A stretch of DNA of 64,000 bases from contig NZ_LUAW01000020.1 in the NCBI RefSeq assembly GCF_001605895.1, positions 62,826 to 126,825 on the forward strand, in the 5' to 3' direction. Position numbers and translations under genes: made by a program. Shown here one piece after another: positions 5,083-60,384 of this stretch; within the stretch, counting starts at the first letter, position 1, and each line of letters begins with the position of its first letter. The stretch comes from Acinetobacter pragensis (GTDB taxonomy: Bacteria; Pseudomonadota; Gammaproteobacteria; Pseudomonadales; Moraxellaceae). A model generated the notes under the pieces. It made no database searches. It saw only the letters and a list, made by a program, of their open reading frames with translations, and was not told the DNA's origin.

Positions 5083-5912
5083 CGCGCGGTTCTCCCTGTG
5101 CGTCGGCTTGCCCATGCTTGCACTAAGTTAATGGCAAACAGAATAGCAAATGAAATCACCAGCATGACCACAGCAATAGTGGTTGCGCCCGCATAGTCAT
5201 ATTCTTCTAAACGAGAAATAATCATCAAAGGTGCAATTTCAGTTTTAAAGGGCTGGTTGCCGGCAATAAAAATGACCGAGCCATATTCGCCGACGCCGCG
5301 TGCAAATGCCAATGCAAAGCCGGTAATTAATGCTGGAAATAAAATCGGCAGAATGACTTTAGTGACAATTTGAAAGCGGTTCGCGCCTAAAGCAGAAGCG
5401 GCTTCTTCCAGTTCGGTTTCTAAGTCGCTTAGTACGGGCTGTACCGTACGCACCACAAACGGAATGCCAATAAAGATCAGCGCCAATGTAATCCCGATAG
5501 GGGTATATGCGACTTTAATGCCGATGGGTTCTAAATACTGACCAATCCAGCCTGTAGGCGCATACAGGGATGTCAATGCAATGCCGGCAACAGCTGTTGG
5601 CAGGGCAAAAGGCAAATCGACCAAGGCATCAATTATTCGTTTGCCAGGAAAGGTATAGCGCACAAGGCACCATGCCAGCAACAGGCCAAAAACGACATTG
5701 ACCAGCGCGGCAATAATTGCTGTGCTGAAGCTTAATTGAAGGGATTTTAAAATTCGCTCAGAACTTAAAATTTCCCATAAACCATCCCAGCCTATACCCA
5801 GCGATTTAATAAAAACCGCAGATAAAGGAATCAGCACGATTAATGACAAATACGCAAGGGTAAAGCCTAAAGACAGACCAAATCCTGGCAGCACTCGGGA
5901 CCGCTGCGACAT
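5079..5912 (-). CDS. cysT: Sulfate ABC transporter permease CysT (CysU)
   Basis: Partner permease of the sulfate importer, 277 residues. Six membrane segments, with the coupling-loop motif [28 protein letters not shown] and the family stretch [19 protein letters not shown]. Its stop codon overlaps the cysW start (ATGA), indicating translational coupling. Upstream lie a small hydrolase gene (86 bases away) and then the sbp genes, so the binding proteins may come from separate promoters. Confidence 0.94.
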
Positions 5913-5998
5913 GACTACTCCTCAAAAAGAGAAAATTGACTGAAATCAGTCAATAAAAAACAAAATGTAAAATTCGGTTCAAGCATAAGTTGCAGTGA

Positions 5999-6604
5999 TT
6001 AAATTGCAAATTTAAATAAATACTTGTACTCATCAGGAATGTTGATATGCGGCATAGTTTTTTCTGAAATCAAATAATTGAAAATCTCAGGAAAAGGGCC
6101 ATGCCCTGATGCCACATTAATATGACCTGCTGAACCTGCGTTGATCGGTTTGAGTTTCCATGACTTCGCCAAAAGCTGCGCGTCATCAAAGGCCAGCCAA
6201 GGATCATTTTCACTGATGATCATTGTGGCAGGCACATGAATTTTAAGCTGATGGAAATAGGCGGCATAGTCATTTTGACTGTCGCGGGCAAAGCCCGCGT
6301 CCCCAAAACGGGCAGGGTTTGCCGGAGCAACCAAAATCAATTTTTTGATTCTGCTGTTGAGCTCCGGATGCTCCGCCAGCGCTGCAACCGCGGTTAAGCA
6401 GCCAAAGCTGTGCGCCACAATTTGGATATCATCCTGAATAGGGGCTACAGTTTTGACAAACTGCGAAATCCAATGGTTCAGTACAGGATGGTTCCAGTCT
6501 TCTTGCTGAACGCGGGAGCAGGACATGAGCTGGCGCTGCAGCCAAGACTGCCAGTGATGCTGTTCACTGCCGCCCACACCTGGAACGATTACGGTATGCG
6601 TCAT
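5999..6604 (-). CDS. RBBP9/YdeN-family alpha/beta serine hydrolase
   Basis: Small alpha/beta hydrolase of the RBBP9/YdeN family, 201 residues. It starts with the oxyanion-side motif VIVPGVGGSEQHHWQSWL. The nucleophile elbow is AHSFGC (Ser at about 66); the acid is probably in SENDPW and the catalytic His in AGHINVASGHG, the tail typical of the family. No signal peptide, so cytoplasmic. It lies inside the sulfate uptake cluster, between sbp and cysT on the same strand, 30 bases from sbp, yet no member of this family is a known part of sulfate transport. Substrate unknown. Confidence 0.85.
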   Translation of the reverse strand: MTHTVIVPGVGGSEQHHWQSWLQRQLMSCSRVQQEDWNHPVLNHWISQFVKTVAPIQDDIQIVAHSFGCLTAVAALAEHPELNSRIKKLILVAPANPARFGDAGFARDSQNDYAAYFHQLKIHVPATMIISENDPWLAFDDAQLLAKSWKLKPINAGSAGHINVASGHGPFPEIFNYLISEKTMPHINIPDEYKYLFKFAI

Positions 6605-6634
6605 GTCAATACTCCTGATTCAGTCAAGCGGAAA

Positions 6635-7648
6635 TTACTTCGCGCTGTTAGACTTTACAATTTGGTCAAAGATACCGCCATTTTCAAAGTGCGCTTTTTG
6701 TACTTTGTTCCAGCCGCCAAATTCTTGATCTATCGTTACCAGTTTCAATGGTTTGAAGGTTTTTCCATATTGCGCCAATGTTTTGGCATCGCGCGGACGG
6801 TAGAAGTTTTGCGCTGCTATCTGCTGGCCGCGTGGAGAATACAGGAAGTTTAAATAGCCTTTGGCTAAGTAAAGATTGCCTTTCTTCTCTGCATTTTTTT
6901 CCACAATGGCGACAGGCGGTTCAGCCAAAATAGACAGAGACGGGGTTACAATTTCAAACTTGCCCGGCTGCTCACGAATGGCGAGATACGCTTCATTTTC
7001 CCAAGCCAGCAAGACATCGCCTATGCCGCGTTCAGCAAAAGTGGTCGTTGCGCCGCGTGCGCCAGAGTCCAGCACTTTGGTGTTTTTATAGATTTTGCGC
7101 ACAAACTCTTGCGCTTTCGCATCATTGCCGCCCGCTTGGTGTTTAGCCCAAGCCCATGCGGCTAAGTAGTTCCAGCGCGCGCCGCCTGAAGTTTTAGGAT
7201 TTGGGGTGATGATGCCGACACCGGGTTTTACTAAATCGCCCCAATCTTTAATGTGCTTCGGGTTGCCTTTGCGTACTAAAAACACAATTGTTGAGGTATA
7301 TGGCGTAGAGTTATTCGGCAGTTTCTTTTGCCAGTCCGCAGGAAGCAGTTTCGCTTTTTCAGCAATTACATCAATGTCCGCGGCTAAAGCCAGCGTAACC
7401 ACATCTGCATCCAAGCCATCAATGACTGAGCGGGCTTGCTTGCCGGAACCGCCATGTGACTGTTTAAAATTGATTTTTTGTCCTGTACGGCTTTCCCAGT
7501 ATTTACTGAAATCCTTATTCACATTTTCATACAGTTCACGGGTTGGATCGTATGATACGTTCAGGAAATCTTTGGCTGCAGCGCCTAAAGAAATAGTGGA
7601 TACAACTGCGGCCAAAACTCCAAGTTTCAACTTTGCTGAAATGCTCAT
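6635..7648 (-). CDS. sbp: Periplasmic sulfate-binding protein, copy 1
   Basis: Extracytoplasmic sulfate/thiosulfate receptor for CysTWA. 337 residues, signal peptide 1-25 (cleavage after GAAA), then the family opening [15 protein letters not shown], the anion-site segment [38 protein letters not shown], and [19 protein letters not shown]. Nearly every segment is shared with the paralogue 186 bases upstream; the two differ mainly in the signal peptide and the last 80 residues. Both copies look intact. Confidence 0.93.
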
Positions 7649-54444: not shown

Positions 54445-55902
54445 GTGAGCAAAGACACTATCATCGCCTTACATGCAGAGCACCAAGGTCGCTGGAAAAA
54501 CCGTGAAGAAATCGCGGAACAAATGATCGCCTTGATCGGTCAGCTTTACCGTGAAAAAAATATCGTTGTTTCAGTTTTTGGACGTTCTTTAGTTAACCGT
54601 TCAGTGATTCAGATTTTAAAAGCGCACCGCTTCACCCGCATGATGGACGTTGAGCTTTCTGTTGTTCATACTTTCCCAATTCTTGAAGCTTTGGCTAAAG
54701 TGGAAAACATTGGTACAGCTGAAATTGATCTTGGCAAATTGGCTGTTGCATTGAAAGAACAGGGCGGCGATTTAACTGCTTTTGTTGCTGACGCAGTGAA
54801 ATCTGTGGAAGGCCGTGCGACTTCAGTAGAAGGCCGTGATGTTGTTCTTTACGGTTTCGGCCGCATTGGCCGCATTCTTGCGCGCTTAATGATTGGTCAA
54901 TCAGGTTTAGGCCGCGGCTTAAACATTAAAGCCATTGTTGTTCGTAAATCTTCTGATGGCGATTTAGAAAAACGCGCATCTTTGCTGCGCCGTGACTCTA
55001 TTCATGGTCCATTTTCTGGCACAATTTCTGTCGATGAAGAAAACGAAGCAATTATTGCAAACGGTCAATTCATCAAAGTAATTTATGCATCTAGCCCGGC
55101 AGAAGTGGATTACACAGCTTACGGCATCGAAAATGCATTGGTAATCGACAACACAGGTAAATGGCGTGATGCTGAAGGCCTTGCGCAGCACTTGAAATGC
55201 CCAGGCGCTGCACGTGTGATTTTGACTGCACCAGGTAAAGGCGACATGAAGAACGTGGTGTTTGGTGTAAACCAAGCAGACATTCTTGATGAAGATACCA
55301 TTATCTCTGCTGCAAGCTGCACAACAAATGCCATCACGCCAACACTGAAAGTGCTACATGACAAATACACAGTGCTGAATGGCCACGTTGAAACAGTTCA
55401 CTCGTTCACTAACGATCAGAACTTAATTGACAACTACCATAAAGCTGACCGCCGTGGCCGTGCTGCAACATTGAACATGGTAATTACGGAAACTGGCGCG
55501 GCTAAAGCAGTTGCTAAAGCGCTTCCAGCGCTTCAAGGTAAATTGACTGGCAACTCTGTACGTGTTCCTACTCCAAACGTATCGCTTGCGATTTTGAACT
55601 TAACTTTAGATAAAGAAGTTGATCGCGACGAAGTGAATGAATACATCCGTAAAATTTCAATCAGCTCAAGCCTTCAAGGTCAAATTGGCTATACCAACTC
55701 TACAGAGGTTGTATCGTCTGATTTTATCGGTTCGCGTACTGCGGGCGTATTTGATGCGCAAGCAACAATTACTTCAGGCAACCGTTTAACTGCTTATGTT
55801 TGGTATGACAATGAAGTGGGTTACAGCTGCCAAGTATTGCGTATTGCTGAACAAATGGGCGGCGTGAGCTATCCTAAAATTCCTGCTGAAACAAATGCAT
55901 AA
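54445..55902 (+). CDS. gap: Glyceraldehyde-3-phosphate dehydrogenase, long form
   Basis: Phosphorylating GAPDH of glycolysis/gluconeogenesis, 485 residues instead of the usual 330-340. A helical extension of about 128 residues (RWKNREEIAEQMIALIGQLYREK, HRFTRMMDVELSVVHTF) precedes the core. Core: NAD-binding YGFGRIGRILARLMI, catalytic Cys in SAASCTTNAITPT, KADRRGRAATLNMVITETGAAKAVAKALPAL, and VWYDNEVGYSCQ. Such long forms occur in Acinetobacter and Pseudomonas, where flux is mostly gluconeogenic. Starts at GTG, AGAGGAC upstream. Confidence 0.93.
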   Translation: MSKDTIIALHAEHQGRWKNREEIAEQMIALIGQLYREKNIVVSVFGRSLVNRSVIQILKAHRFTRMMDVELSVVHTFPILEALAKVENIGTAEIDLGKLAVALKEQGGDLTAFVADAVKSVEGRATSVEGRDVVLYGFGRIGRILARLMIGQSGLGRGLNIKAIVVRKSSDGDLEKRASLLRRDSIHGPFSGTISVDEENEAIIANGQFIKVIYASSPAEVDYTAYGIENALVIDNTGKWRDAEGLAQHLKCPGAARVILTAPGKGDMKNVVFGVNQADILDEDTIISAASCTTNAITPTLKVLHDKYTVLNGHVETVHSFTNDQNLIDNYHKADRRGRAATLNMVITETGAAKAVAKALPALQGKLTGNSVRVPTPNVSLAILNLTLDKEVDRDEVNEYIRKISISSSLQGQIGYTNSTEVVSSDFIGSRTAGVFDAQATITSGNRLTAYVWYDNEVGYSCQVLRIAEQMGGVSYPKIPAETNA

Positions 55903-56220
55903 TTCTTTTGTATTTTAGTTTTTAGCTAAAAAAGAGCCTCAATTGAGGCTCTTTTTTTATGGCAGGCTGTTTTTCAGCTTATAGCATTGCAAGGCAAAAA
56001 CACCCAATTGATTAAAATGCACAGCTGTAGCGGGTTTATTGGCCACTGCTTGTTTTAAAAATAGCGGATATGATGAAACAGCCTTTTATAGGGTTTTTCT
56101 TTTATAATAAGTACATGAAATAAATAAATAAAATGCTACAAAAGTTGACGAATTAATGCAGATTAAATCAGTAAGTTTTGAAACAATAGCGGTAAATTAA
56201 AAAGAAGTTAAGGATTAACT
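55903..56220. other. Interval between gap and the beta-repeat operon
   Basis: 318 bases. The terminator at 55928-55959 ends gap. The rest is AT-rich and must hold the promoter of the next operon, but I see no sure -35/-10 pair and no gene. Confidence 0.6.
55928..55959 (+). terminator. Terminator of gap
   Basis: AAAAAAGAGCCTCAA / TTGAGGCTCTTTTTTT, a near-perfect long stem with a T-run. Confidence 0.93.
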
Positions 56221-56964
56221 TTGCAAATAAAGCACGTGCTCAGCGGATTGGCGTTTATTGTGTTTGCAGCTCTGTGTGGTGTACTGATCGCCATTTGGGT
56301 GTTCAAGCATTTTAATATTTATATTCCGCTGAATAATCAAAATGTGAATATTGATCTGCAGGAGCCTTTGCAGGCAGAAGTGAAAATTCATGACGCGCTG
56401 GATGTGGATGTTTCGGGGCGGGTCAATGCAGAAATTCCAATTAAAGAACAGCTGAATATTCCATTAAGCCAGACCCTGACCCCGCGTGTATATTTTGACA
56501 ATCAAGTGCCAATTAAAACGGTTATTCCTGTGCGGGAAATACTGAAGGTTAATCAAAATTTGGCGGTTGATACACAGGTCAAAGTTAAAGTGATGGGGCA
56601 GGATATTACTCTGCCGCTAAAAGGCACTATACCTATTCAGCTGGATGTGCCGATTACGATGAATGTGCCCTTAGAGCAAAAAATTCATCTGAAGTTTAAT
56701 GCGCCAGTAAAGACTGTCTTAAAAGAAAATCTGCGTATTCCGCTAGAGGCAACGCTAAAAACCAATATTCCAATTGAAGGCCATTTAAACGTACCGGTTA
56801 AAACGGCACTGAAAGCCTCTGTGGATGTGCAAAACACTTTGCCAGTTAAAATTAAGCAGGGGCAATTGGTCATTCCGTTGAACAGCATGCGTGTCGCCCG
56901 TAGCCATCCGCCTACTGCATCTGCTCCAGATGCTGAGCAAGCGCAAAATACGGGGCAGCCGTGA
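56221..56964 (+). CDS. Membrane-anchored beta-repeat protein, first of pair
   Basis: 247-residue protein I do not recognise. A short N-terminus and one membrane span (about 6-29, LSGLAFIVFAALCGVLIAIW) anchor it; the rest is exported. From about 34 to 225 it is nearly all short strands carrying a (V/I/L)P(I/L/V) pair every 10-20 residues (EIPIKEQLNIPL, QVPIKTVIPV, TLPLKGTIPIQLDVPI, NVPLEQKIHL, RIPLEATLK, NIPIEGHLNVPV). This predicts an elongated beta structure. The Pro/Thr-rich tail (SHPPTASAPDAEQ) is disordered. TTG start; AAGTTAAGGATTAAC precedes it. The next gene starts at its stop. Confidence 0.78.
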   Translation: MQIKHVLSGLAFIVFAALCGVLIAIWVFKHFNIYIPLNNQNVNIDLQEPLQAEVKIHDALDVDVSGRVNAEIPIKEQLNIPLSQTLTPRVYFDNQVPIKTVIPVREILKVNQNLAVDTQVKVKVMGQDITLPLKGTIPIQLDVPITMNVPLEQKIHLKFNAPVKTVLKENLRIPLEATLKTNIPIEGHLNVPVKTALKASVDVQNTLPVKIKQGQLVIPLNSMRVARSHPPTASAPDAEQAQNTGQP

Positions 56965-57644
56965 TGCGGATCTTCAATTCCGCCAAGCGCATGATGCTGA
57001 GTTTTAGCGCGGCAACATGCCTGATAGCGCTCTTGTTTTGGCTGTATTTGAACGTGCAGGCATCTATGCAGGTCGCAGCGCAGCGCGCAGATATAGAACT
57101 GCCGCATTCGCTGCCCACGCGGATTCATGTCGGCAATTATCTGCAAACCCAATCGGTAGGCACATTAGGCACAAAAATTGAGATTAACCGGCAATTGGCT
57201 TTGCCGCTGCAGGGCAAATATTTGGCAAATTTGCAGTTTACTGTAGAAGTCCCCGTCTCTGTAGATCTTGATTATGAAACGGTGATTAAAATTGATCAGA
57301 TGATGCCTTTGAAGGCATCAACCGATTTGGTGGTAAAAAATACCTTGTTGCCCAAGTTTCCTTTGAATATGGATATTCCTATTCGCTTAGATGTTCCATT
57401 TCATTTAAAGAAAACCTACCGGATACCGATTAAAATTTTGTTTGATGGGCCGGTCCATCTGGCTTTTGACGAAACCATTCAGCTGCATGTGCTGCATCAG
57501 TTCGCGCCGAAGCTGAATATCAATGATGCGATGACCATGCGCAGAATTGCCTCTTTCCGTGCAACGATGTATAACGCCGAGCGTAATACTCAAGCCAACT
57601 TAAATATGAATATGCAGCTGCCGCTGAGAAATATTCATCCATAA
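56964..57644 (+). CDS. Membrane-anchored beta-repeat protein, second of pair
   Basis: 226-residue protein of the same kind as its neighbour: basic N-terminus (MRIFNSAKRMM), one membrane span (about 11-32), then exported beta repeats (RQLALPLQGKYL, VEVPVSVDLDYETVIKI, NMDIPIRLDVPFHLKKTYRIPIKI), ending with a helix-like basic part (DAMTMRRIASFRATMYNAERN) and MNMQLPLRNIHP. The ATG overlaps the previous stop by one base (TGATG); a GTG one codon earlier is possible. Coupled translation and shared architecture suggest the two form one complex. Function unknown. Confidence 0.77.
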   Translation: MRIFNSAKRMMLSFSAATCLIALLFWLYLNVQASMQVAAQRADIELPHSLPTRIHVGNYLQTQSVGTLGTKIEINRQLALPLQGKYLANLQFTVEVPVSVDLDYETVIKIDQMMPLKASTDLVVKNTLLPKFPLNMDIPIRLDVPFHLKKTYRIPIKILFDGPVHLAFDETIQLHVLHQFAPKLNINDAMTMRRIASFRATMYNAERNTQANLNMNMQLPLRNIHP

Positions 57645-57724: not shown

Positions 57725-57762
57725 CAAAGAAACCCTTTGCCGTAAAGCAAAGGGTTTCTTTT
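57725..57762 (+). terminator. Terminator of the beta-repeat operon
   Basis: A 15-bp stem AAAGAAACCCTTTGC / GCAAAGGGTTTCTTT over CGTAAA, with a T-run. Confidence 0.92.
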
Positions 57763-57840: not shown

Positions 57841-58695
57841 TTAATGGAACAGCGTTTTAATTTGCTCTGCAATTGGGGTGGTTTTACGGCCAATCAGCTG
57901 TTCTAAATCTTTACTGCTGCTGAACATTGCACCTTGTGCAGTCTGTACATCAGCATCAACAATTACATCAATTAACGGTGCGGGCAATCCAGCTTGGGCT
58001 AAGCTCTGAGTCAGTTCTGCAGCCGTTAAGTTTTGGTAAATAACCGCTTTACTGGATGCATCTGCAATAAATTGCGCCAGATCCGCTTTGGTAAAGCTTT
58101 CGGAACCGGCCAGTTCATACGTTTTATGCTCATGTCCTGTACTTGCCAAGACTTGCGCAGCGGCCTCAGCGTAATCTGTGCGGGATGCTGAACTGATTTT
58201 ACCTGTTTGGGAGGCGCCATACAAAATGCCGGATTCCGCAATTTGTGCCACAGTGGCTAAATAGTTATCGCTATACCAGTTGTTGCGCAGGAATGTATAG
58301 TCTAATCCGCTTGCTTTAATTAAGGCTTCGGTTTCACGGTGCTCCTGTGCCAGCCCCAATGGTGAATGCGCTGCATTCAGTAAACTAGTGTAGGCAATGT
58401 AAGGTACGCCGGCCTGTACAGCAGCTTCAATAACCGCTTTGTGCTGCGGTGTGCGGCGCCCAATTTCATTGGCGGAAATCAGCAGCAGCTTGTCTATGCC
58501 ATGCAGGGACGGAACTAATGTTTCGGGCGTATCATAATCAAAATGACGAAGTTCTATGCCTTGCTGTTTCAAGCCGTCAGCTTTAGCTTCATCGCGTACG
58601 AGAGCAATGATTTGACTGGCGTTGATTTTATTGAGCAGCGCTTTAATCACCAATTGACCGAGTTGGCCTGTCACGCCAGTAATTGCAATTTTCAT
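57841..58695 (-). CDS. qorB: NmrA-like NAD(P)H:quinone oxidoreductase QorB type
   Basis: Short-chain-dehydrogenase-like (NmrA/TMR) enzyme, 284 residues, close to E. coli QorB (YtfG), an NADPH:quinone reductase. N-terminal GVTGQLGQLVIKAL near 7-20, ALVRDEAKADGLKQQGIELRHFDYDTPETL, and FLRNNWYSDNYL, a family block around the active site. It is divergent from an HxlR regulator with a short intergenic region, the same pairing as E. coli ytfG/ytfH. Confidence 0.88.
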   Translation of the reverse strand: MKIAITGVTGQLGQLVIKALLNKINASQIIALVRDEAKADGLKQQGIELRHFDYDTPETLVPSLHGIDKLLLISANEIGRRTPQHKAVIEAAVQAGVPYIAYTSLLNAAHSPLGLAQEHRETEALIKASGLDYTFLRNNWYSDNYLATVAQIAESGILYGASQTGKISSASRTDYAEAAAQVLASTGHEHKTYELAGSESFTKADLAQFIADASSKAVIYQNLTAAELTQSLAQAGLPAPLIDVIVDADVQTAQGAMFSSSKDLEQLIGRKTTPIAEQIKTLFH

Positions 58696-58767
58696 CTTCT
58701 TTCCTCTGGATATGTCTGCCTGACATGTCTATAAAATATACTTGATGATCAAATCATAATCTGATAG

Positions 58768-58789
58768 CTTACAAAATGTAAGTACGTAC
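58768..58789. promoter_or_regulatory. Candidate operator between qorB and its HxlR regulator
   Basis: CTTACA-AAA-TGTAAG is an inverted repeat (58768-58782) joined to the palindrome GTACGTAC (58782-58789). It lies in the 129-base divergent interval. The repeat-plus-palindrome arrangement suits a dimeric winged-helix repressor; binding is inferred. Confidence 0.5.
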
Positions 58790-58824
58790 CAAAAAGTTAG
58801 TTTGTTACGGATTGGAGAGATTTA

Positions 58825-59202
58825 ATGAGCACATATGCTTCGAGTAAATTATTAGGGCAAGTGTTGTCCGCAAATTGCCCCTCACGGGAAATCTTAGAGC
58901 ACATCACCAGTAAATGGTCTGTTCTAGTTTTACGGTGCCTGAGTGAAGGCGTACACCGTTTCAGTGAGCTGAAGAAACGCATAGAGGGCATCAGTGAAAA
59001 AATGCTGGCGCAAACCTTAAAAACATTGGAACAGGACGGCTTGATTTTGCGTACTGTATATCCCGTCGTTCCGCCAAAAGTTGAATACCAGCTGACTTTT
59101 ATAGGCTCACAGGCGGCGGAAAAAATTATGTATTTAATTGGCTGGATTGAGCAGAATATTCCGGAAATATTAAGCAATAAAAACAGCAGTAAAAGCGCTT
59201 AA
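58825..59202 (+). CDS. HxlR-family regulator, QorR-like
   Basis: Winged-helix regulator, 125 residues. The N-terminal NCPSREILEHITSKWSVLVLRCL carries the conserved Cys (about 15) that senses quinones or oxidants in QorR-type HxlR proteins, followed by GVHRFSELKKRIEGISEKMLAQTLKTLEQDGLI (recognition helix and wing). Divergent from qorB, which it probably represses, possibly with itself, through the operator-like repeat in the shared interval. Confidence 0.88.
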   Translation: MSTYASSKLLGQVLSANCPSREILEHITSKWSVLVLRCLSEGVHRFSELKKRIEGISEKMLAQTLKTLEQDGLILRTVYPVVPPKVEYQLTFIGSQAAEKIMYLIGWIEQNIPEILSNKNSSKSA

Positions 59203-59259
59203 ACTCAATGTTTGAGCAGGAATGCTGCGCTATGCGGTAAAGTGCATAAAGCAAAAGGA

Positions 59260-60384
59260 ATGGACGTATTGAATATTCAGAATAGCCTTTTGAAAATTAT
59301 TGATTGGAGCATCTTTTCTAAAATTCAATTGATTATGGCATCCTCTGTGCACATGGATTTAGGCTTGCTGTATATGTCATTCAAAGTGATGGCGCAGCCT
59401 TTAGCGAACATAGAGTTTTTAAAAGCCGCAAATGGAGTGCTGTATGTTTATCTGCTGATAGGGAGCATGCTGTTTTTATTGGGTTTTTGGCTGAAAAAAT
59501 ATAATAAGTTCGGTAATTTTTATGCACATTTAGGTGTGAACTATAACGCAATTTCTATGCTGCTGTCGGCATTTGCCTTAGGCATAATCAATATCACCAA
59601 TGGTGTTATTTTTATTGGCTCCTGCCTGATTTTGATGATTTTGCTGCCTAAAAAAGTGGTGTATTGGGGAATTGCAAATACAGCGGTTTTATTTTTGGTA
59701 TTGATATGCCTAACCGTGAACGGCAGCATTCATTATGCCCCGATTTTCCAGCCATACGTTACTTTCTCTGCAGATATACAGAATTTTTATTTAATTAATT
59801 CAAGTATCTATATGGTTTTTTATTCGGCCCTAATGATATGGGTGCTGAATATTTGCCTGCGGAACTGGAATCTTAAAAATGAACAGATTAAACAGCTGTC
59901 TTTAATGGATGGCTTGACGGAACTATATAACCGCAGGGTTCTAGAAAAAGCGCAGCACAATTTTACAGCGTCAGGCGTTCCAGAAAATTGCGGCTTGATC
60001 ATTTTAGATTTGGACAATTTTAAGCAAATAAATGATGAGCACGGTCATTTTTTCGGTGATCAGGTGCTGAAGCATGTGGCTAAAATATTAAAAGAAAAAT
60101 CACGTGCTGATGATTTGCCTATCCGCTATGGCGGTGAAGAGTTTCTGCTGCTGTTGAAAAATACATCTAAACATGAATGCCATCAAATTGCAGGGCGGAT
60201 TTTAAGCGCTTTGAATCAAGAGCCGGTTCAGCTGAATCTGCATCAGAACCTGATTGTGACTGCAAGCATGGGGGTGAGCCATAGCCATGACAATTTTAAA
60301 AATTTTGATGAACTGTTTAAAGCTGCAGATGAACAGCTGTATTTGGCCAAATCGCTTGGAAAGAACCAAATCTGCATGATTTAG
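59260..60384 (+). CDS. Membrane GGDEF diguanylate cyclase
   Basis: Membrane-bound c-di-GMP synthase. About 374 residues from the ATG after AAAAGGA (MDVLNIQNSLLK); earlier TTG and other later starts are possible because the ribosome site almost touches this ATG. Six predicted membrane segments at about 30-210, then a GGDEF domain: LSLMDGLTELYNRR, LDLDNFKQINDEHGHFFGDQVL, active site RYGGEEFLLLL. The inhibitory I-site RADD lies exactly five residues upstream of GGEEF, so it is probably feedback-controlled. Starts shortly after the HxlR gene and may be transcribed with it. Confidence 0.88.
   Translation: MDVLNIQNSLLKIIDWSIFSKIQLIMASSVHMDLGLLYMSFKVMAQPLANIEFLKAANGVLYVYLLIGSMLFLLGFWLKKYNKFGNFYAHLGVNYNAISMLLSAFALGIINITNGVIFIGSCLILMILLPKKVVYWGIANTAVLFLVLICLTVNGSIHYAPIFQPYVTFSADIQNFYLINSSIYMVFYSALMIWVLNICLRNWNLKNEQIKQLSLMDGLTELYNRRVLEKAQHNFTASGVPENCGLIILDLDNFKQINDEHGHFFGDQVLKHVAKILKEKSRADDLPIRYGGEEFLLLLKNTSKHECHQIAGRILSALNQEPVQLNLHQNLIVTASMGVSHSHDNFKNFDELFKAADEQLYLAKSLGKNQICMI

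Follow-up and report, generated by a model that had tools for sequence, protein, structure and literature searches.

A tandem pair of related Acinetobacter proteins with long hydrophobic/polar alternation, possibly a beta-rod anchored in the inner membrane

Several described proteins can be compared with the gene pair analysed here. According to passages of PMC12802150, the AsmA-like proteins (TamB, YdbH, YhdP and GspN) combine an anchor in the inner membrane with a beta-rich periplasmic part, and GspN, which has beta-taco folds, is drawn in the inner membrane. The two proteins studied here are predicted to have the same outline. The needle of phage T4, gp5, is a triple-stranded beta-helix with glycine-bearing octads, VxGxxxxx, and left-handed beta-helices, among them LpxA and LpxD, carry the hexad [LIV]-[GAED]-x2-[STAV]-x. 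YnbE (Pfam Lipoprotein_19) is a 61-residue lipoprotein with a short alternating strand, in phase over residues 29-61. In the LEA_2 family an NPN motif is invariant in the four proteins that we aligned.

The window, i.e. the whole stretch of 64,000 nucleotides from Acinetobacter pragensis that was analysed, contains two adjacent genes, ORF1 and ORF2, and two inverted repeats that flank them:

55928-55957, + strand: terminator-like palindrome in the interval between gap and ORF1, a perfect 15-bp inverted repeat without a loop, ending in TTTTTT.
56221-56964, + strand: ORF1, 247 amino acids, TTG start; a membrane span, in-phase alternation at residues 41-124 and 125-212, and a variable tail.
56961-57644, + strand: ORF2, 227 amino acids, GTG start; by sequence a paralogue of ORF1, with an N-terminal span and in-phase alternation at residues 44-203.
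57726-57761, + strand: intrinsic terminator of the ORF1/ORF2 pair, a perfect 15-bp stem with a 6-nt loop and a T-rich tail.

The next codon of ORF2 is an ATG at position 56964, and a start there would give a protein of 226 residues (56964-57644). With the GTG start the genes overlap by four bases, with the ATG start by the single base that had originally been described. The palindrome lies between gap and ORF1 and thus sets the two genes apart as a unit of their own. The terminator (arms 57726-57740 and 57747-57761) begins 82 nt after the ORF2 stop, the 131-nt stretch that contains it folds with a z-score of -4.9, and the stem sequence is unique within the window; a simple terminator scanner did not call this stem. 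Between gap and obgE, ORF1 and ORF2 form a separate transcription unit, in line with the original prediction of a dedicated two-gene unit ending in a strong terminator.

The upstream gene, gap (54445-55902), codes for a protein of 485 residues, which we take to be longer than the usual GAPDH. In two of the 21 Acinetobacter genomes without the pair (G020 and G070) gap has distant matches only. The interval from the pair towards obgE contains an NmrA-like gene and a divergent HxlR-type regulator (57841-59202, both named by eye). As the former is found in 18 and the latter in 29 of 70 named loci, the interval is a variable spot. Further towards obgE lies a GGDEF-type membrane protein (59212-60384), diguanylate cyclase-like by eye.

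The two proteins are 23% identical across 159 residues (E 3e-14) and their profiles match with an hhalign probability of 99%; judged by these comparisons they are homologous, and paralogues. No further copy of either type was found in the source genome. Both genes are present in 18 of 37 genomes of the same genus, and a search with the ORF1 profile gave a match in 32 of 59 genomes of the genus. Two peptide patterns from ORF1, which leave distant relatives out of reach, were run against named genomes and yielded 70 distinct ORF1 loci, every one in a record titled Acinetobacter. ORF2 accompanies ORF1 in all 70, with its aligned start at -4 to +32 bases relative to the ORF1 stop; gap was found in 66 of these loci and obgE in 64. 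The pair is carried by A. pittii, A. nosocomialis and A. baylyi. Just one of the 70 records (L058) is titled A. baumannii.

A search of 390 genomes from the order with a broader profile gave matches in 21 at E <= 0.01 and in 14 below 1e-9, both counts including the source genome and one remnant. Five genomes match in a sample of 369 from the class, clearly so only the source genome and G458. The relatives in families f43, f38 and f24 have the same tandem order, with two overlapping or abutting genes, while families f7, f22, f29 and f20 have single genes. The pair is patchy in f43 (5 of 46 genomes). Two f43 genomes contain a third, ORF1-like copy, L194 (8853-9725) and L195 (9217-9987), about 1.1-1.2 kb downstream of the pair and beyond a gene on the opposite strand that looks LysR-like by eye.

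A protein tree was calculated after removing the first 30 residues of every protein. A branch with a support of 99/98, at which the program warns that long branches meet, divides all ORF2-type proteins from a group that comprises the ORF1-type and the f7, f22 and f29 solo proteins. The separation of the types by this branch indicates that the duplication is older than the split of these families, and, by the tree and the shared tandem order in f43, f38 and f24, the pairing of an ORF1-type with an ORF2-type protein is old.

Each protein has one N-terminal hydrophobic span according to hydropathy, as originally predicted, and a second span was not found in either of the two window proteins. The net charge before the span is positive in all 36 aligned rows. 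It is higher before than after the span in 28 of these and equal in eight, all of ORF1-type, so that the charge rule is weak in this type (8 of 18 rows). On hydropathy and charge, the span is likely an anchor in the inner membrane.

The remainder of both proteins is dominated by an unusually regular alternation of hydrophobic and polar residues. Assigned by a three-state phase model with hand-chosen parameters, ORF1 is in phase for 84 residues, flips once and continues for another 88, and ORF2 stays in phase for 160 residues. The autocorrelation of the alternation changes sign at every lag up to 40 in both proteins, declining from about 0.4 to 0.1-0.2 in ORF1 and falling less in ORF2. The alternation score is 0.25 for ORF1 and 0.24 for ORF2, compared with 0.0006 +/- 0.016 for the 49 other window ORFs of at least 180 residues; among the controls, OmpN scores 0.066 and a DUF1302 barrel 0.018. 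We ranked 327 ORFs of at least 150 residues from the window and 30 loci. The top 31 (0.139-0.280) are all family members, followed by 0.082 and 0.038, and the median is zero. ORFs that resemble each other at residues 21-60 were counted once in this set, single X letters were removed before scoring, and L179, which has masked letters, was left out; longer overlapping frames took the place of the pairs in L194 and L195. The pattern supports a strand-like exported part, as originally proposed, and from it we infer a beta-type fold.

In-phase runs of similar length are also found outside the family: 152 residues in a frame of L171, 93 in an L195 frame antisense to the pair, 90 in MreD, 87 in T4 gp5, and 83 and 81 in ORFs of L166 and L162, always with an alternation score of at most 0.082. 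As the membrane protein MreD and the L171 frame have such runs, a long run alone is no proof of a rod. The L171 frame (5455-7617) is open for 720 residues and has the next-highest score after the family, 0.082. It may be a shadow frame of a repetitive gene.

Among ten named controls, gp5 has the longest in-phase run (residues 489-575), followed by TamB (59 residues), TamA (50) and OmpN (49). By analogy with gp5, the two specialised sister chains, each anchored in the inner membrane, might be entwined in a beta needle that lacks loops, has an uninterrupted hydrophobic core and crosses the periplasm to the outer membrane. The pair would then correspond in bacteria to the tail needle of phages, and be a new architecture in the cell envelope. 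However, the C-terminal part of gp5 has a low alternation score (0.05), unlike ORF1 and ORF2, which further differ from it by proline pairs spaced 6, 12 and 18 residues apart and by the membrane anchor. The run in MreD is as long as that of gp5, so the likeness to gp5 is weak, and because gp5 shares its long in-phase run with other proteins outside the family we give the needle a low probability.

The recurring (V/I/L)P(hydrophobic) motif, named in the original description, is found 14 times in ORF1, well beyond chance (mean 2.8 and maximum 8 in 1000 shuffles), but the eight copies in ORF2 are reached by shuffled sequences (mean 2.1, maximum 8). The alternation is the stronger hallmark of the pair, and it had been missed, as had the paralogy and the old pairing across several families.

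In both paired types the commonest spacings between proline pairs are 6, 12, 18, 24 and 30, and the hydrophobic autocorrelation peaks at lag 18, with lag 6 next. These periods would suit a beta-solenoid with 18 residues, i.e. three hexads, in each coil, similar to the left-handed or the bactofilin-like beta-helices. Bactofilin is also a weak match in five of 18 ORF1 members, far from significance with a best E of 0.029. However, the left-handed helices LpxA and LpxD have alternation scores of just 0.010 and 0.033, and the solo type ranks the hydrophobic lags 6, 12 and 8 over 18, so a solenoid appears quite unlikely to us. A spacing of eight between proline pairs, the length of the octads of a triple-stranded beta-helix, is mildly favoured in the solo proteins (0.11) and not in the paired types (0.05 and -0.02), and the hydrophobic lag 8 is high in all types (0.26-0.28), below lag 18 in the paired ones.

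The single phase flip of ORF1 is central and coincides with an LG/MG turn that is conserved; in f43, f38 and f24, too, the ORF1-type proteins change phase at the corresponding position. Each chain might therefore form a giant beta-hairpin, in which two arms of about 85 residues meet at the flip and span the periplasm. The AlphaFold2 model of ORF1 has a hairpin at this place, with predicted strands 89-124 and 127-162, but the pLDDT is only about 61 near the turn. The ORF2-type and solo proteins either change phase at other positions or keep it throughout, which weakens the hairpin as a universal fold. Given these differences in flip position no single geometry fits all three types, and we hold the giant hairpin to be improbable.

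The AlphaFold2 models, obtained from an alignment of 18 rows per protein, shallower than the set of 70 loci, are poor, with a pLDDT of 45 and 52 and a pTM of 0.17 and 0.30 for ORF1 and ORF2. After the anchor helix they consist almost only of strands, some as long as 36 and 49 residues. The originally expected beta structure, as opposed to disorder, is thus what is predicted, but at low confidence. A Foldseek search with the models gave no match at E <= 0.001. Matches to long-hairpin pore formers and to flagellar rings were set aside due to the low confidence of the models.

None of 36 members matches a Pfam family above its curated cut-off, and NCBIfam gave no match above cut-off for either window protein or for any of the 17 rows in alignment A4. 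Searches of the PDB with the profiles A1 (ORF1) and A2 (ORF2) found nothing below E 0.4. Three matches that are short or unlike the query were rejected as matches of composition: part of a phage family of unknown function in PHROGs (E 5e-5), a nicking enzyme in PADLOC (L160, E 5e-5) and a designed repeat protein in the PDB, found with profile A4 (E 5e-6). The original statement that the proteins belong to no nameable family holds, as no confident match to a characterised family appeared. Literature searches, with queries other than the locus tags, found no paper on the ORF1/ORF2 pair.

Below the Pfam cut-offs, the members match LEA_2, Lipoprotein_19, Pox_RNA_pol, SymE, C2_Mug190 and others. 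Lipoprotein_19, the YnbE family, is listed for nine of 18 ORF1 members (best E 0.0029), ORF1 itself obtaining 15.1 bits at a cut-off of 25.8. YnbE is a lipoprotein, whereas a lipobox is present in none of the 18 A1 and 18 A2 rows and in one of the 17 A4 rows, and hhalign of the pair against YnbE found nothing. LEA_2 is listed for ten of 18 ORF1 members, with a best E of 0.00058 (ORF1: 20.7 bits, cut-off 25.4), and the pair could be imagined as LEA_2/WHy-like proteins that are expressed in certain conditions and stabilise membranes or proteins. However, LEA_2 is listed for no ORF2 member, the NPN motif is missing from all A1, A2 and A4 rows, hhalign of the pair against LEA_2 gives 0.3%, and six LEA_2 proteins have alternation scores of at most 0.075. 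This reading is already disfavoured by the sequence comparisons and we consider it very improbable. Neither LEA_2 nor YdbH-like genes were found in the source genome.

The genomic neighbours differ between the families. In Acinetobacter the pair lies downstream of gap and upstream of obgE, with variable genes in between. In f43 five of five genomes have a DUF445 gene upstream of the pair, at a distance of about 230 bp. Both f24 genomes have a DUF445-like gene within about 4 kb of the pair (one below the Pfam cut-off), a DUF1302 gene, whose product is presumably an outer-membrane barrel, 17 bp upstream, and Abi_alpha-like genes nearby (the second judged by eye). An Abi_alpha-like protein of f24 is related to the one that is encoded next to DUF445 in f43. 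In f38 the gene adjoining the pair has an LPD1 domain (in one genome; the other was judged by eye). No neighbour is common to all the families compared, and as the DUF445, DUF1302, Abi_alpha-like and LPD1 genes never adjoin the pair in Acinetobacter they are at most a hint to the envelope. DUF445 was rejected as a partner: the source genome has a single DUF445 gene, on another contig, and nine other pair-bearing Acinetobacter have a second, shorter DUF445 type that is far off or on another contig. The shorter type is also present in two Acinetobacter without the pair (G003 and G027).

The pair could also be short AsmA/TamB/GspN-type proteins with a beta-taco fold, anchored in the inner membrane, whose groove would carry lipid or lipoprotein towards the outer membrane. 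The outline is that of GspN in the excerpts of PMC12802150, and both ORF1 and ORF2 have a long hydrophobic face. For none of the 36 members, however, does the Pfam listing at E <= 1 contain an AsmA-type family, and hhalign against YdbH and TamB gives a probability below 1%. The alternation score is 0.000 for YdbH and 0.021 for TamB, despite the one run of 59 residues in the latter, and is near zero in the part of YhdP that was analysed, unlike the 0.25 of ORF1. The DUF1302 gene beside the pair in f24 would suit such a transfer system as its outer-membrane partner. It is adjacent in f24 only, and among 28 Acinetobacter DUF1302 is above the cut-off in just three of 15 with the pair and none of 13 without, too few to link the two. 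The AsmA/TamB and LEA relationships suggested originally found no backing in the sequence comparisons, and the lipid-transfer reading is rather unlikely in our view.

Across seven species pairs dN/dS is 0.005-0.055 for ORF1 and 0.012-0.082 for ORF2; the values of gap are 0.010-0.052 and those of obgE 0.007-0.072. One of the seven pairs has a saturated dS. Both genes are under strong purifying selection, similar to that on gap and obgE. The beta region has no indel in either gene at any of the 70 loci, nor in the 18 aligned rows. The NmrA neighbour is likewise free of indels (18 of 18 loci, at 58-83% identity), so this is not special by itself.

The pair is nevertheless absent from scattered lineages. 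We examined the region beside gap in 12 of the 21 located genomes without the pair and found no trace of it. In ten of the 12, obgE follows gap within the stretch; the other two have no obgE in reach. On an obgE tree of 67 rows with the pair (66 of 72 loci and the window) and ten without, the absence requires ten state changes, at least eight of them forced by well-supported branches. The pair is always at one place, which suggests repeated loss, and homologous recombination exchanging the pair locus could contribute to the scattered absence. One Acinetobacter without an intact pair (L172, left out of the tree as it has no obgE) contains a decayed remnant downstream of gap, at 6887-7277, in which the last 88 residues of ORF2, in a different frame, come straight after about 39 residues of the ORF1 start. 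The strong constraint, the scattered absence and this remnant together indicate that the pair is constrained while it is kept, yet dispensable.

The reading that we tentatively favour, with somewhat less than an even chance of being right, is that ORF1 and ORF2 are periplasmic beta-rod proteins anchored in the inner membrane, which act together in an envelope role that is useful under certain conditions. The two anciently duplicated proteins would be made together, each inserted in the inner membrane by its one span with the N-terminus inside. Their exported parts, of about 160-175 residues, would present a hydrophobic and a polar face over very long runs, and copies of both chains would bury their hydrophobic faces against each other in a long, loop-poor beta rod. 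As single-gene relatives occur in f7, f22, f29 and f20, a rod of two chains would not be obligatory in the family. The gene pair, its paralogy and conservation, the alternation, the selection and the scattered absence are observed; the fold, the joint complex and the localisation are what we infer. For the task we can offer a guess, namely that the rod stands on the inner membrane in the periplasm as a stiff tether, a spacer or a hydrophobic track of the envelope, useful in some conditions only. The original suggestion that such proteins span the periplasm or take up hydrophobic ligands might also apply.

If this is right, Acinetobacter, a genus with clinical species and a laboratory model, would have an envelope component that has no Pfam or NCBIfam family and no convincing relative in the PDB. 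In the species pairs compared this component would be about as constrained as gap and obgE, and yet be absent in scattered lineages. The alternation score may also provide a simple way to find more loop-poor beta proteins that family libraries miss.
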